In this document: in pieces, positions 1,788-34,734 of the stretch
Position numbering within the stretch: position 1 is the stretch's first letter
Layout of the letters: each line of letters opens with the position of its first letter
From: a virus
IMG/VR virus record: IMGVR_UViG_3300035703_000262
Location: 1 to 34,734 of that record
Direction: 5' to 3' (one strand)
Length of the DNA stretch: 34,734 nt
Notes under the pieces: model-generated
Databases searched by the model: none
What the model saw: only the letters and a program-made list of their open reading frames with translations
What the model was told of the DNA's origin: nothing
Translations under genes and position numbers: made by a program

Positions 1788-2381
1788 ATGGACGAAACCA
1801 ACCCGCCAGAATCACAGGAAAAAAAAGAAACTACGAGCGCAGGGACGCGCCGTAGTAAAGACGACTTGGATAAGGAAATTGCAGAAGGATTTCAAAGCCT
1901 TCCGGTCGATGAGAAAATTCTGGCCTTCCTTTATAAGTACCCAGATGCAACGGTAAGACAGATCGCAGCGGTGGTCGGCGTATCGAAGACGGTCGTGCAT
2001 CGTCGCATGAAGAAGCCGTCGTTTAAGCGTGCCTATAAAGAGATGAAAGCCGACGTGCTCATGCTTATGGGCAGAGCGAAGATTATGGCGATGCGTCGGA
2101 TTATGGAACTCATTAAGTCAGAAGACGAGAACATAGCCCTTCGCGCTTCTCTCGGCGTTCTTCAGGGCGAGTTGCAGGGTGAAAGTCTTGCACGCTTTGC
2201 CGAGGTGGGCGGAAATATTACCTACGCTGTTCAGTTCGGCGAATCTGGTCAGGTCTTTAATAAGATGATCCGTGTGCCTTCAGGTACTAATGTCGAGAAG
2301 GTAATCGAAGCAAACGTCGTAGACACGAAAGACGTGCTACCTCAAAACACGCTGGAGCTTCTTAAAGGTGTCGAGACTTAA
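1788..2381 (+). CDS. terS: Terminase small subunit
   Basis: 197 residues, directly upstream of and overlapping the large terminase by 14 bp. Residues about 45-75 form a helix-turn-helix (ATVRQIAAVVGVSKTVVHRR) followed by KKPSFKRAYKE, as in the DNA-recognition domain of small terminases that bind pac/cos and load DNA into TerL. A central helical oligomerisation region and a beta-rich tail follow. ATG 1788 has only a weak ribosome site (GCGAG), so the start is less certain than the gene. The assignment rests on the HTH, the size and the adjacency to TerL. Confidence 0.75.
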   Translation: MDETNPPESQEKKETTSAGTRRSKDDLDKEIAEGFQSLPVDEKILAFLYKYPDATVRQIAAVVGVSKTVVHRRMKKPSFKRAYKEMKADVLMLMGRAKIMAMRRIMELIKSEDENIALRASLGVLQGELQGESLARFAEVGGNITYAVQFGESGQVFNKMIRVPSGTNVEKVIEANVVDTKDVLPQNTLELLKGVET

Positions 2382-3798
2382 CGCTGAACTGCCTGAGATG
2401 CAGCCGCAGCAACATATTATAAAACTCGCACAGCCGCACAGCGAGAAGCAGCGCGTCATAATGCAAGCTCTTATCACGCCGGGAGTCAGAGAGATCTGGG
2501 TGCCGTGCGGTACTAAGTTTGGAAAGACGTTTGCAGCGGCTTCTGCCGTTTGCGCTCGTGCTCCATTTTCTCCTGGCGGTCTGATTCGCTGGATCGCTCC
2601 GATCTATAGTCAGTCGAAGATAGGGTTTAACTACATCCGTCGCATGATGCCCGGCGAGCCGCTGGTAAAGATCAACAAAGCTGAGCTGTCTATTCACTTC
2701 AATCCGACCGATACATCGATAGAGATCAAGTCGGGCCGTAATCCAGAAGACCTAGAAGGTGAAGCAACGTCGGCAAACGTACTCGACGAAGTCGCGAAGA
2801 TGACGCGCCAGGTCTACGATTCGACCAAGACGACGACGACTGTTACTCGTGGTCCGATTCTTGCCATTTCTACGCCTCGCGGAAAGAACTGGTTCTATAC
2901 GAAGTGCATGGAAGCTCGCGAAAGAATGCAATGGGATCTGCGACGAGGCAAGCCGCCAACGATTCTCTATATAACCGCACCTTCAACTGATAACCCTCTT
3001 GTATCTGCCGAAGCCGTTGAAGATGCTCGCAGAGGTCTGCCCGACCGCCTCTTTCGACAGTATTACCAAGCGGAGTTCATAGACGATGGTTCGGTCTTTG
3101 CCGGGTATCGCGACTGCATAGCCGGAGAAGCCATCGAGACGATAGATAAGTCGCAGCGGTGGTTTCTTCCAGGATACGACACAACTAAAGGTCAAGTTGT
3201 CATAGGCGCCGATTGGGCAAAGACTAAAGACTGGACCGTCTTTGTCGCTATAGACGTACCCACGCGAAGGATCGTAGCCTTTCAGCGCTTTCACAAAACA
3301 CCTTATACCGAAGCAGTAGGTCGCCTAATACGTTTCTCAAAACAGTTTGCAGATGTGATAGTGATCAATCACGATAAGACTGGACTAGGTGGAGTTATCG
3401 ACGATCTACTTGCAAATAGTGACATACCTTATAACGGCATAACGTTTACAAACTCGTTCAAAGCAGAAGAAGTAGCAAAGCTAATTACAGCCTTCGAGCA
3501 GAAACTATTGACTATACCTAATTGGTCTCATCTTCTAGATGAACTAGAGTGCTATGAGGTAAAGGCAACACCGACCGGAAACATGACCTATGCCGCTGCA
3601 GAAGGTAAGCACGACGATATAGTTTCAGCTCTCATGCTTGCCTACTCAGCCTTGTCGCAGTACGCTGACGCAGTCTACGACGTTCGCTTCGTGGAAGGAA
3701 ATAAGATCGTTGACGCCTACGGCTCCGAGGTAAAGGATACGCAGAGTCCTATCGAAAGGTATTACCAAGACATTGTAGGCATGAGCGACGACGATTAG
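2368..3798 (+). CDS. terL: Terminase large subunit (ATPase-nuclease)
   Basis: 476 residues from GTG 2368. This is the packaging motor that cuts concatemeric DNA and pumps it into the prohead. Walker A-like GTKFGKT is at residues 48-54 and Walker B ANVLDE ends at D140/E141. The RNase H-like nuclease domain shows GADWAKTKDWT (D282), INHDKTG (D336) and KHDDIVSALM (D416/D417), consistent with the three metal-binding acidic positions of the family. Length is typical. The 14-bp overlap with terS suggests coupled translation. The portal gene follows 33 bp downstream. Confidence 0.95.
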   Translation: MSRLNAELPEMQPQQHIIKLAQPHSEKQRVIMQALITPGVREIWVPCGTKFGKTFAAASAVCARAPFSPGGLIRWIAPIYSQSKIGFNYIRRMMPGEPLVKINKAELSIHFNPTDTSIEIKSGRNPEDLEGEATSANVLDEVAKMTRQVYDSTKTTTTVTRGPILAISTPRGKNWFYTKCMEARERMQWDLRRGKPPTILYITAPSTDNPLVSAEAVEDARRGLPDRLFRQYYQAEFIDDGSVFAGYRDCIAGEAIETIDKSQRWFLPGYDTTKGQVVIGADWAKTKDWTVFVAIDVPTRRIVAFQRFHKTPYTEAVGRLIRFSKQFADVIVINHDKTGLGGVIDDLLANSDIPYNGITFTNSFKAEEVAKLITAFEQKLLTIPNWSHLLDELECYEVKATPTGNMTYAAAEGKHDDIVSALMLAYSALSQYADAVYDVRFVEGNKIVDAYGSEVKDTQSPIERYYQDIVGMSDDD

Positions 3799-31875: not shown

Positions 31876-32460
31876 GTGCAACCATCAATCAGCCGAAACT
31901 TTTATGGCTTTTTAAAAGGCGTTGCACCGATGGACCCAGAAGGCGTAACCGTTCACTACACTGCGGATCGCGATCCGATGCGAACCATTAAAAGCCTTCA
32001 GCAAGCTGCTCTTGCTTATCATTATTTGATTGATAATTTCGGTACGATCTTTCATCTCGTAGACGTTCACGAGCGCGTAAACCATGCAGGAAAAGCTCTG
32101 TGGAACGGTCGCTCTCCTAATCGCACTCATATCGCCGTGGCCTTGTTATCGTGGGGGCGTTTGACGAAACAAGACGACGGTACTATTAGGACTTGGAACA
32201 ACATTCGCATACCTGAGTCTGGCACAGCTTTTCGCCTGAACGCCTACTGGGACAAGGCAAGCGAGATACAGGAACTCGCCCTTCTGGCTCTTCTTCGCAA
32301 GCTATGCTATGAAGAAGGTATAGACGCAACGGATATATGCGGGCATGATGAATGTGCTATACCTTCTGGCCGGAAGACGGACCCTGGAGGGGTGCTTTCA
32401 CGGACCATGGCGGAGATTCGGAGTGACATCTTTCCAAAAGACGAAGACTTGGAAATCTAA
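31876..32460 (+). CDS. N-acetylmuramoyl-L-alanine amidase (endolysin)
   Basis: GTG 31876 is chosen because AAAGGAG lies 8 nt upstream; 194 residues. AmpD/T7 lysozyme-type Amidase_2: zinc ligands H27 (VTVHYTADRD), H157 (CGHDECAIP) and D169, with catalytic-type K167 in SGRKTDPG; NHAGKALWNG (H70) is also characteristic. It cleaves the amide bond between MurNAc and L-Ala in peptidoglycan. No signal peptide, so it probably needs a holin. It overlaps the HNH gene by 38 bp. Confidence 0.88.
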   Translation: MQPSISRNFYGFLKGVAPMDPEGVTVHYTADRDPMRTIKSLQQAALAYHYLIDNFGTIFHLVDVHERVNHAGKALWNGRSPNRTHIAVALLSWGRLTKQDDGTIRTWNNIRIPESGTAFRLNAYWDKASEIQELALLALLRKLCYEEGIDATDICGHDECAIPSGRKTDPGGVLSRTMAEIRSDIFPKDEDLEI

Positions 32461-32782
32461 AGCCTACCTAGAACACATTCGTTCTCGCCCATGCGTCGTC
32501 TCTGGAACTAGCCATAACGTCATAGCACACCACGTCAGAATGTTCGGTCATGGTGGCGTCGGCATGAAGCCGTCAGATTACCTCTGCATACCTCTAGACG
32601 ATACTCTTCACAAAAAACTGCACAACATGGGCGAGCGCGAGTTCTGGGACTCGCACGGCATAGACATCGGCATGAAGCTGGTCTGTGAGATGCTCATTTT
32701 TATTTTGAAGTCAGGAACCGTGAACAAAAAACTATTAGACGAAGTAGGGGAGGTAGTCCGTGGCGTTTCAACCAGTGAGTGA
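32423..32782 (+). CDS. HNH / Ref-like His-Me finger nuclease
   Basis: GTG 32423 has GGAG at 7 nt spacing; 119 residues. SRPCVVSGTSHNVIAHHVR (H36/H37) followed by GVGMKPSDYLCIPLDD and LHKKLHNMGEREFW (H63, H67) match the phage DUF968/Ref-like group of HNH-type nucleases, sometimes linked to recombination. Only one clear Cys of the usual zinc set is seen. It is translated from within the amidase end and overlaps the RHH gene start. A role in DNA processing is inferred. Confidence 0.65.
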   Translation: MTSFQKTKTWKSKAYLEHIRSRPCVVSGTSHNVIAHHVRMFGHGGVGMKPSDYLCIPLDDTLHKKLHNMGEREFWDSHGIDIGMKLVCEMLIFILKSGTVNKKLLDEVGEVVRGVSTSE

Positions 32783-32951
32783 TAAAGAGCGCAAAAAGAT
32801 CATCGTAAACTTTAAGGTAAACGAAGATCAGTACAAGAATCTGATTATTAATTCAGACGGAAATATCAGCGAGTACATCAGAAAAAAATGCTGCGGAGAG
32901 CCAAGCACTACTCAGCATAAGCAAGAACAAGCTCCTCAACAAGTGGGATAG
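32760..32951 (+). CDS. Small RHH-like DNA-binding protein
   Basis: 63 residues from GTG 32760, GGAGG upstream, overlapping the nuclease gene by 23 bp. KKIIVNFKVNEDQYKNL gives a short beta-strand and NISEYIRKKC a helix pair, the layout of ribbon-helix-helix proteins like MobC/Arc. A Gln/Pro-rich tail follows. Such proteins bind operators or mark DNA; here it sits next to a ParB-like gene. Fold-level call only. Confidence 0.5.
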   Translation: MAFQPVSDKERKKIIVNFKVNEDQYKNLIINSDGNISEYIRKKCCGEPSTTQHKQEQAPQQVG

Positions 32952-32954
32952 TAA

Positions 32955-33800
32955 ATGCAGGAAATAAGAATTAGATGCGACGTAAAGGATCATCTTCCTT
33001 TAGGATCGTTCGTCAATTTACAGGGCAATTTAAAGTCTCTTTCTACAGAGAACTATCAGAAGTTGCGAAAGCATATCCTTGAGCTTGGTTTCACCGCACC
33101 GATCTTCGTATGGAACAATAAAATACTCGACGGTCATCAGCGTCTTAAAACTGTTCAGCAGATGGTGTCTGATCGAGAGCTTTCGTGCTCTCACTTGCCA
33201 ATCGTAAATATAAATGCTGAAAACGAAGACGAAGCACGACGAATGCTTTCTGGTTTTGTAAGTCAGTTCGGACGTGTAGACGAGCAAGGTCTATACGAGT
33301 TCGCTACAGAGTCGAACTGGTCGCCAGCGTTTATGCTTGAGAATATGGATATTCCAGGCTTCGATATGCCGAAGTTTTTGGAAGGCTATTACGATAACTT
33401 TAAGATACCTGGCGAAGAGAATGAATCAGATGAAAGTATGTACTCGAAGAAGATCGAAGCTCCCATCTACGAGCCTAAAGGCGAAAAGCCGCAACTTAAC
33501 GAACTCGTTGATTACTCTAAGATGACTGAACTGATATCTCAGATCGATGCTGCCGATATTTCAGAAGACGAAAAGCACTTTTTAAAAGCTGCTGCATATC
33601 GCCATAACGTCTTTAACTATGAAAAAATAGCCGAATACTATGCTCATTCAAGTACTGAAACGAAAGACTTAATGGAAAAGTCAGCTCTCGTAATTATTGA
33701 CTTTAATAAGGCTATCGAGAACGGATTCGTTCAGATGTCTACAGTCATTGCTGATATGTTCTCAGAAGAATTTAATACTGTAGAGGATGTAGATGAGTAA
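32955..33800 (+). CDS. ParB-like (ParB/Srx fold) protein of a DNA-modification module
   Basis: 281 residues, ATG 32955, 3 bp after the RHH gene stop. The N-terminal about 130 residues are ParB/sulfiredoxin-like: TENYQKLRKHILELGFTAP, then ILDGHQRLKTVQQM with the GHQR signature at 60-63. The C-terminal region (about 180-275: LKAAAYRHNVFNYEKIAEYY, ALVIIDFNKAIENGFVQM) is helical. ParB-like genes of this form accompany DNA base-modification glycosyltransferases in phages. It overlaps the glycosyltransferase start by 8 bp, strongly suggesting a shared operon and pathway. Nuclease or NTPase activity is not assured. Confidence 0.72.
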   Translation: MQEIRIRCDVKDHLPLGSFVNLQGNLKSLSTENYQKLRKHILELGFTAPIFVWNNKILDGHQRLKTVQQMVSDRELSCSHLPIVNINAENEDEARRMLSGFVSQFGRVDEQGLYEFATESNWSPAFMLENMDIPGFDMPKFLEGYYDNFKIPGEENESDESMYSKKIEAPIYEPKGEKPQLNELVDYSKMTELISQIDAADISEDEKHFLKAAAYRHNVFNYEKIAEYYAHSSTETKDLMEKSALVIIDFNKAIENGFVQMSTVIADMFSEEFNTVEDVDE

Positions 33801-34734
33801 CGACTTTGCTGCAATTATTCTTAGTCACGGAAGACCGGAAAAGGTTGTGACTTATAATACTTTACGCGAATGCGGCTATACGGGCCGCATCGTCGTTCTT
33901 ATCGATAACACCGACAAGACGGCAGCTCGTTACAAAGAACTTTACGGAGATCAGGTCTACGTTTTCGACAAGTTTAAGGTGAAGTATGAAAGCGAGAGTG
34001 GAAACAATTTCAACGATCTTCGCTCCACAATATTTCCGCGCAACGCCATGTTCGACGTAGCAAAAGATCTGGGAGTTAAAGCGTTTATTCAGCTAGACGA
34101 CGACTACATTTCTTTTCGCTATAAGTTCGACGATCAATATAAGTGGATTAACGACCGTCTGTGTAAGCCTAAAAATCTCGATAAACTCTTCAAAGTGTTT
34201 GTTGAATTCATGGAAAAAACACCGCTACTAAGTCTGTGTTTCGCTCAGGGAGGCGACTTCATTGGCGGCGAGAACTCGCAACTAGCGCAGCACGTTAGAA
34301 CGAAGCGTAAGGGGATGAACTCTTTCGTCTGTCTAACGGATAGACCTTTTAAGTTTTTCGGACAGATGAATGAAGACGTAAATACGGTTATCAATCTTGG
34401 AAGTCGCGGTCATATCTTTCTTATGACAAATCAGATCTCTCTCGATCAGCTACCGACTCAGAAGAACGCCGGAGGAATGTCTGATATATATCTCGACTCT
34501 GGAACGTATGTAAAAACCTTTTATTCGGTAATGTATCATCCATCTGGCGCGAAAGTTCACTATCTAAATTCAAGCAATAAGCGAATTCATCATCAAATTA
34601 AATGGAAGTACACTGCTCCAAAAATATTGCGCGAAAGCATTAAGCATAAAGTCGAAGAAGTTCAAAACAACTCAACAGTGAACGTAGTGCCAGGAACAAA
34701 AAGTATCGAAAACAAAAAAAGCGAATCCGTAATA
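33793..34734 (+). CDS. TET-associated-type DNA glycosyltransferase, 3'-truncated
   Basis: Open from ATG 33793 to the window end (314 codons, no stop). It begins MSNDFAAIILSHGRPEKVVT and has the DxD-type motif FIQLDDDY (D102-D104), GGDFIGGENS, MNEDVNT (193-198) and AGGMSDIYLDSGTYVKTFYS, the signature I associate with TAGT glycosyltransferases of phages (GT-A fold). These add sugars to hydroxymethylated cytosine made by phage TET/JBP enzymes. A Lys/Asn/Gln-rich tail runs past residue 290. Sugar donor, acceptor and the oxygenase are not visible. AGAGG precedes the ATG. Confidence 0.8.
   Translation, partial: MSNDFAAIILSHGRPEKVVTYNTLRECGYTGRIVVLIDNTDKTAARYKELYGDQVYVFDKFKVKYESESGNNFNDLRSTIFPRNAMFDVAKDLGVKAFIQLDDDYISFRYKFDDQYKWINDRLCKPKNLDKLFKVFVEFMEKTPLLSLCFAQGGDFIGGENSQLAQHVRTKRKGMNSFVCLTDRPFKFFGQMNEDVNTVINLGSRGHIFLMTNQISLDQLPTQKNAGGMSDIYLDSGTYVKTFYSVMYHPSGAKVHYLNSSNKRIHHQIKWKYTAPKILRESIKHKVEEVQNNSTVNVVPGTKSIENKKSESVI

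Follow-up and report, generated by a model that had tools for sequence, protein, structure and literature searches.

TAGT glycosyltransferases, reportedly defined as a family in a 2013 paper, bear a name that implies a TET enzyme. Among the closest described systems is that of phage T6, whose beta-glucosyl-HMC-alpha-glucosyltransferase adds glucose to already glucosylated hydroxymethylcytosine in DNA (PMC13216743). This phage-encoded enzyme falls into the same Pfam family (PF20691) as the glycosyltransferase described here, for which a GT-A fold is predicted. In a 2026 paper, TAGT was found without alpha-GT or beta-GT in 288 of 753 phage genomes, and novel transferases were suggested (PMC13216743). 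These solitary TAGTs are homologs that occur without the T-even glucosyltransferases, as in the present case. The main text of that paper does not mention ParB; relative to the open-library literature, the domain that we name PC and its linkage to TAGT are added by the present analysis.

Two further systems resemble the locus through the N-terminal part of a ParB-like protein (ParB-N). In the fusions of ParB-N to N6/N4 methyltransferases of PHROG 498 (e.g., MW202867), ParB-N is up to 77.5% identical to a ParB-N of the module studied here and the gene occupies the same genome slot 5' of terminase, but the effector is the fused methyltransferase, whereas here it is PC with a separate TAGT. In Mycobacterium phage Nigel, a block of ParB, TET/JBP, P-loop kinase and terminase genes has the same layout, with an enzyme gene that overlaps behind ParB and terminase next; its ParB, however, has a different C-terminus, and an oxygenase and a kinase stand where our loci have TAGT.

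The last two genes of the phage fragment

The window analyzed is the entire IMG/VR record IMGVR_UViG_3300035703_000262 (34,734 nt), a tailed-phage fragment that stops within its final gene; because the window is the whole record, there is no sequence past position 34734 to look at. The genes run from terminase (1788-3798) via head, tail and lysis genes to those for ParB-PC and TAGT. The terminase region, on the plus strand, encodes a probable small subunit (1788..2381; PHROG 2538, E 9.9e-8) and the large subunit (2368..3798; PHROG 2, E 2.1e-35, Terminase_6C), and 5' of it lies a near-repetitive stretch at 1083-1290 (cgttcgtgttcgtgttcg...).

The penultimate gene (32955-33800, plus strand) encodes a ParB-fold protein of 281 aa, and the last gene (33793-34734, plus strand) a glycosyltransferase of 314 aa with no stop codon up to the end of the record. 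The catalytic domain of the latter is complete, and what may be missing at the open 3' end is a C-terminal tail of little conservation. The two ORFs share 8 nt (ATGAGTAA; 33793..33800, plus strand), which suggests that their translation may be coupled, and according to the ORF calls the ORFs overlap in 122 of 127 PC/TAGT pairs. All the elements that the preliminary description of this locus had listed for the two overlapping genes were recovered, namely GHQR at residues 60-63 of the ParB-fold protein and LDDDY, NEDVNT and GGMSDIYLDSGTYVK at residues 101-105, 193-198 and 227-241 of the glycosyltransferase. The RHH-like and HNH-like genes that it had placed upstream were also found, the gene at 32345-32782 as DUF968/HNH-like (Pfam, E 1.5e-14) and the short gene at 32760-32951 through a sub-threshold NikA/RHH-like match (Pfam, E 0.011).

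Membership of the glycosyltransferase in the TAGT family, as first proposed, was borne out by matches to Pfam PF20691 (E 5.4e-31; 108.6 bits against a curated cut-off of 27.5) and PHROG 842 (E 2e-67); PADLOC and NCBIfam returned no match for it. Its AlphaFold model (pLDDT 91.3) can be superposed on GT-A enzymes along most of the chain (Z up to 13.5), and the conserved acidic metal motif that accompanies a GT-A fold is present: among 93 relatives, D103, D104 and D195 are identical in all and D102 in 92. Residues D102-D104 form the metal/nucleotide-sugar motif, and H266/H267 are conserved as well. Judged by this conservation, the motifs are under selection. From homology and predicted fold, the TAGT protein would be the sugar-transferring GT-A subunit.

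The ParB-like part, the PC domain and their linkage to TAGT

The N-terminal part of the 281-aa protein (residues about 1-150; 32955..33404, plus strand) combines the ParB-N fold with the GHxR motif, as expected of the ParB/Srx superfamily. Its identity as ParB is weak by Pfam, where only a sub-threshold GmrSD_N match was obtained, but clear by PHROG 620 (E 1.1e-18), by PDB profiles, which returned Noc/Spo0J/ParB chains (Noc/Spo0J, E 6e-14), and by predicted fold, the AlphaFold model resembling CTP-binding ParB/Noc/KorB (Z 8-10 over about 88 residues). GHxR or GNxR is present in 93 of 102 fused homologs. The fold and the motif are shared with the ParB/Noc/KorB CTPases of chromosome partition; the C-terminal half, however, is here the PC domain, and the role that we propose is enzyme targeting and not partition. 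Among the genes annotated in the blocks of the relatives, no ParA-like neighbor was seen by annotation.

In blast comparisons of the ParB protein, the C-terminal third was much better conserved than the N-terminus. This third holds PC, a helical domain of ~100 residues (about 153-262; 33411..33740, plus strand) recognized by conservation and by its linkage to TAGT. PC was overlooked in the first reading of the sequence and is the most constant feature of these loci. Ten of its residues (Y163, P170, Y172, F209, R216, A226, Y229, E241, D249 and G257) are invariant in 88 of 88 sequences, a degree of conservation that looks higher than expected for a pure adaptor. As a family of its own, PC is absent from Pfam and NCBIfam, and PADLOC also gave nothing; in PHROGs it is covered solely at the tail of PHROG 620. 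A fold search with the whole ParB-PC model (PDB, BFVD) yielded no convincing match to PC outside viral ParB-PC relatives.

Loci were collected with patterns conserved in TAGT or PC, a procedure that favors close relatives; in them, a PC ORF lies immediately upstream of 127 of the 141 TAGT ORFs. Those without it comprise locus edges, TAGT copies in tandem, degenerate genes, loci with a single inserted methyltransferase gene, and one case with only the ParB part recognizable. In the reverse direction, TAGT is found behind all 79 PC ORFs with room for it, 69 times directly and ten times after a single gene, a cytidylyltransferase that is mostly fused to a histidine phosphatase. In the phage collection, TAGT of the PC-linked type occurs in 34 records and PC in 30, the records matching, and a survey of 299 + 299 genomes added one more TAGT without PC. 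The linkage extends over about ten bacterial phyla, in whose phages and prophages it occurs, and to a haloarchaeal virus. ParB-N is less constant in these counts: it is fused in 102 of 131 PC-domain ORFs and PC stands alone in 29, for example in the roughly 190-kb Vibrio phages, where it is a 139-aa protein directly 5' of TAGT.

Across 70 non-redundant loci, pairwise distances of TAGT correlate with those of PC (r 0.58) and hardly with those of ParB-N (r 0.20; bootstrap of the difference, 0.18-0.55), which indicates that PC and TAGT evolve as a unit to which ParB-N is an add-on. At the level of sequence, linkage and co-variation thus show PC as the apparently obligate partner subunit of TAGT, usually fused to ParB-N.

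The O-antigen is frequently modified by phage glycosyltransferases, and many records of relatives name ParB as a partition protein. Both would fit an enzyme that modifies host surface polysaccharide (seroconversion) with a plasmid-style partition gene as its chance neighbor. We regard this as highly improbable, given that the linkage to PC is near-absolute and co-varying, that the enzyme is a TAGT and not a member of a surface-polysaccharide glycosyltransferase family, and that it has no transmembrane-like stretch (maximum 19-residue hydropathy 1.1). A cell-wall or O-antigen role was set aside.

Searches for TET, C5 methyltransferase and hydroxymethylase

The preliminary description held that TAGT acts here on 5-hydroxymethylcytosine made by TET/JBP, with the oxygenase and a cytosine methyltransferase just downstream, and set beforehand as its test the presence of these genes within 20 kb. 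In the relatives, this TET-coupled version fails. Tet_JBP was detected in none of 21 records (the window, 13 named phages, ten of them titled complete phage genomes, and short viral contigs), none of 50 viral records and none of 36 whole prokaryote genomes with PC-TAGT relatives, and C5-cytosine methyltransferase in none of the 21 records, a count of virus-encoded enzymes. What usually follows the pair is terminase, found at most 3 kb downstream in 71 of 80 ParB-type loci. PF00303, the family of dCMP hydroxymethylase, was present in two of the 21 records, both of large Vibrio phages; the PF00303 gene of Vibrio phage SRILMA is annotated as thymidylate synthase and adjoins DHFR (dihydrofolate reductase).

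Phage TETs are recognized by the Pfam model with only moderate sensitivity, and many of the viral records are fragments, so absence from any single such record is weak. The search is not blind, however, since it detected the TET of phage Nigel as a positive control (E 4e-8, 28 bits); as this score lies under the Pfam cut-off, the E-value was used as the criterion instead. The detected protein, Nigel gp2 (776-1744 of the extracted locus L142), belongs to PHROG 6059, labeled queuine tRNA-ribosyltransferase. Its Tet_JBP match and its H-x-D / H-G-V / R-x-S pattern favor TET over this label, which looks wrong from the sequence.

One could still place the oxygenase and the C5 methyltransferase in the unsequenced part of the phage, where they would make the 5-hydroxymethylcytosine that TAGT glycosylates from 5-methylcytosine. 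The family name and the Pfam match would agree with this, as would the position of TET beside a related ParB-N protein in Nigel. The zero counts across all three sets of relatives make it very unlikely, and Nigel itself has neither TAGT nor PC in the stretches scanned (35-65 kb and around the TET gene). The T6 enzyme also differs on this point: a dCMP hydroxymethylase gene is its neighbor, PC does not accompany it and its match to the PC-TAGT profile does not rise above noise, whereas the PC-TAGTs come without TET and with PF00303 only in the two large Vibrio phages.

The acceptor is probably not hydroxymethylcytosine derived from a phage TET or dCMP hydroxymethylase. With no oxidizing or hydroxymethylating enzyme at hand, the candidates become an unmodified base, a base altered by PC or the host, or, less likely, a protein such as PC itself. 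No source of the acceptor hydroxyl was identified in the PC-TAGT relatives, which counts against the reading as a DNA glycosyltransferase; the already glucosylated acceptor of the T6 enzyme and the strong conservation of PC weigh in the same direction. We suggest only tentatively that PC-TAGT could glycosylate bases without a prior hydroxyl (e.g., at an exocyclic amine) or that PC could prepare the acceptor.

ParB-N exchange, genomic setting and proposed function

Three cases of domain exchange point to the substrate. PC-TAGT locus L003 has a ParB-N with 76% identity to the one that MW202867 carries in fusion with an adenine-specific DNA methyltransferase; the fusion gene likewise lies just upstream of terminase. 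The ParB-N of Nocardia phage NTR1, also from a PC-TAGT locus, is 54.5% identical to that of phage Nigel, whose ParB has another C-terminus and is followed by TET, P-loop kinase and terminase. Finally, the ParB-N of the E. coli Rac-type locus is 64% identical to one at L158, where a ParB with a different C-terminus and without PC precedes a TAGT of another subfamily, near terminase-like genes. Compared in this way, ParB-N is shown as an exchangeable module, putatively for DNA targeting. DNA modification is common to all three exchanges, and this is the main argument for placing the product of PC-TAGT on DNA.

In L158 (6373-10044, minus strand) TAGT overlaps ParB, and adjacent genes encode a methyltransferase, a GT9-like and an MptE-like protein. 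Streptococcus phages (H90, H94 and H95 of the phage collection) have a related ParB-N match under a gene annotated as DUF4417, possibly another effector on the ParB-N chassis.

As ParB-N is joined to or placed beside an adenine methyltransferase and TET in other phages, a DNA-modification module is the best reading of the locus. The hypermodification module of the preliminary description is in this respect likely, and it is its TET-coupled form that fails in the relatives. On balance, the PC-TAGT pair rather probably modifies DNA.

A protein acceptor deserves weighing. The structural matches of the glycosyltransferase include the protein-modifying GT-A enzymes GalNAc-T2 and COLGALT1, the invariant Y163, P170 and Y172 of PC fall in a low-confidence, probably flexible region of the model, and the genes adjoin terminase and head genes. 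TAGT might then glycosylate PC (in a glycogenin-like manner), terminase or a capsid protein, with ParB-PC as acceptor or regulator. This is unlikely in view of the exchange of ParB-N with DNA methyltransferase and TET contexts and of the known TAGT relative that modifies DNA (PMC13216743). Moreover, terminase is missing downstream of 15 of the 23 stand-alone PC-TAGT pairs whose flanks are long enough to tell, and genes for replication or recombination surround several of these pairs.

Where terminase does follow the pair, as in Lactobacillus phages c5 and jlb1, Nocardia phage NTR1, Porphyromonas phage 005a and an E. coli Rac-type prophage, one may ask whether the module marks DNA for packaging, in a sequence-specific manner near cos or pac, in place of genome-wide protection against restriction. 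The proximity of terminase in the ParB-type loci would agree with such a mark, and the genes that come first after cos in Lactobacillus phage c5 are those of the pair. Terminase is downstream in only 8 of the 23 stand-alone pairs, however, and the 190-kb Vibrio phages carry PC-TAGT beside helicase and exonuclease genes, which makes a packaging mark quite unlikely.

Accessory genes of the PC-TAGT operons fit varied or decorated sugar donors. They encode a UDP-galactopyranose mutase (L056), cytidylyltransferases alone or fused to histidine phosphatase (L051, L236 and others), radical SAM enzymes (L013, L034, L035, L039, L042 and L098) and class I methyltransferases (L047, L081, L086 and L097). 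In L056 (7857-11928), three consecutive TAGT genes accompany one PC gene and the mutase, an array that suggests decoration with multiple sugars. In L098 (4740-10599), a single block combines two PC-TAGT pairs in tandem with genes for an N6/N4 DNA methyltransferase and a radical SAM/SPASM enzyme.

We return to DNA as the acceptor and propose, as the reading that we consider rather probable, that the two genes encode a DNA glycosyltransferase of tailed phages that has two components, is independent of TET, acts post-replicatively and is built on a ParB targeting chassis. ParB-N would bind, load onto or scan phage DNA, and PC would couple TAGT to ParB-N or complete the active site of TAGT. Because the genes lie immediately 5' of terminase in most relatives, the sugar is probably added late, after replication and shortly before packaging, and it may protect the phage DNA from being restricted once it enters another host.

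Among 5426 complete E. coli genomes, 885 (about a sixth) contain the pair, prophage-borne and to an extent of at least 80%. The E. coli H1 locus has the Rac-type arrangement trkG, ParB-PC (WP_001291093), TAGT (WP_001204028) and terminase. YnaK of K-12 MG1655 (1425377-1425640; L143 7378-7641) is a stub with the first 86 residues of ParB-PC; other E. coli strains have the intact protein in their Rac-type prophages. This distribution makes the function of the pair testable in laboratory E. coli, with K-12, left with the stub only, as a natural null background.

For one sizeable group of TAGTs, the analysis identifies a partner domain that is obligate, and the TET implied by the family name is absent from the relatives searched. 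ParB genes beside terminases are explained as parts of exchangeable DNA-modification units. If bases without a prior hydroxyl are glycosylated, the pair would represent a modular phage DNA-modification platform with a sugar chemistry independent of TET and hydroxymethylases. If DNA is the acceptor, glycosylation of phage DNA would be widespread and would proceed by a chemistry for which no first step is known.
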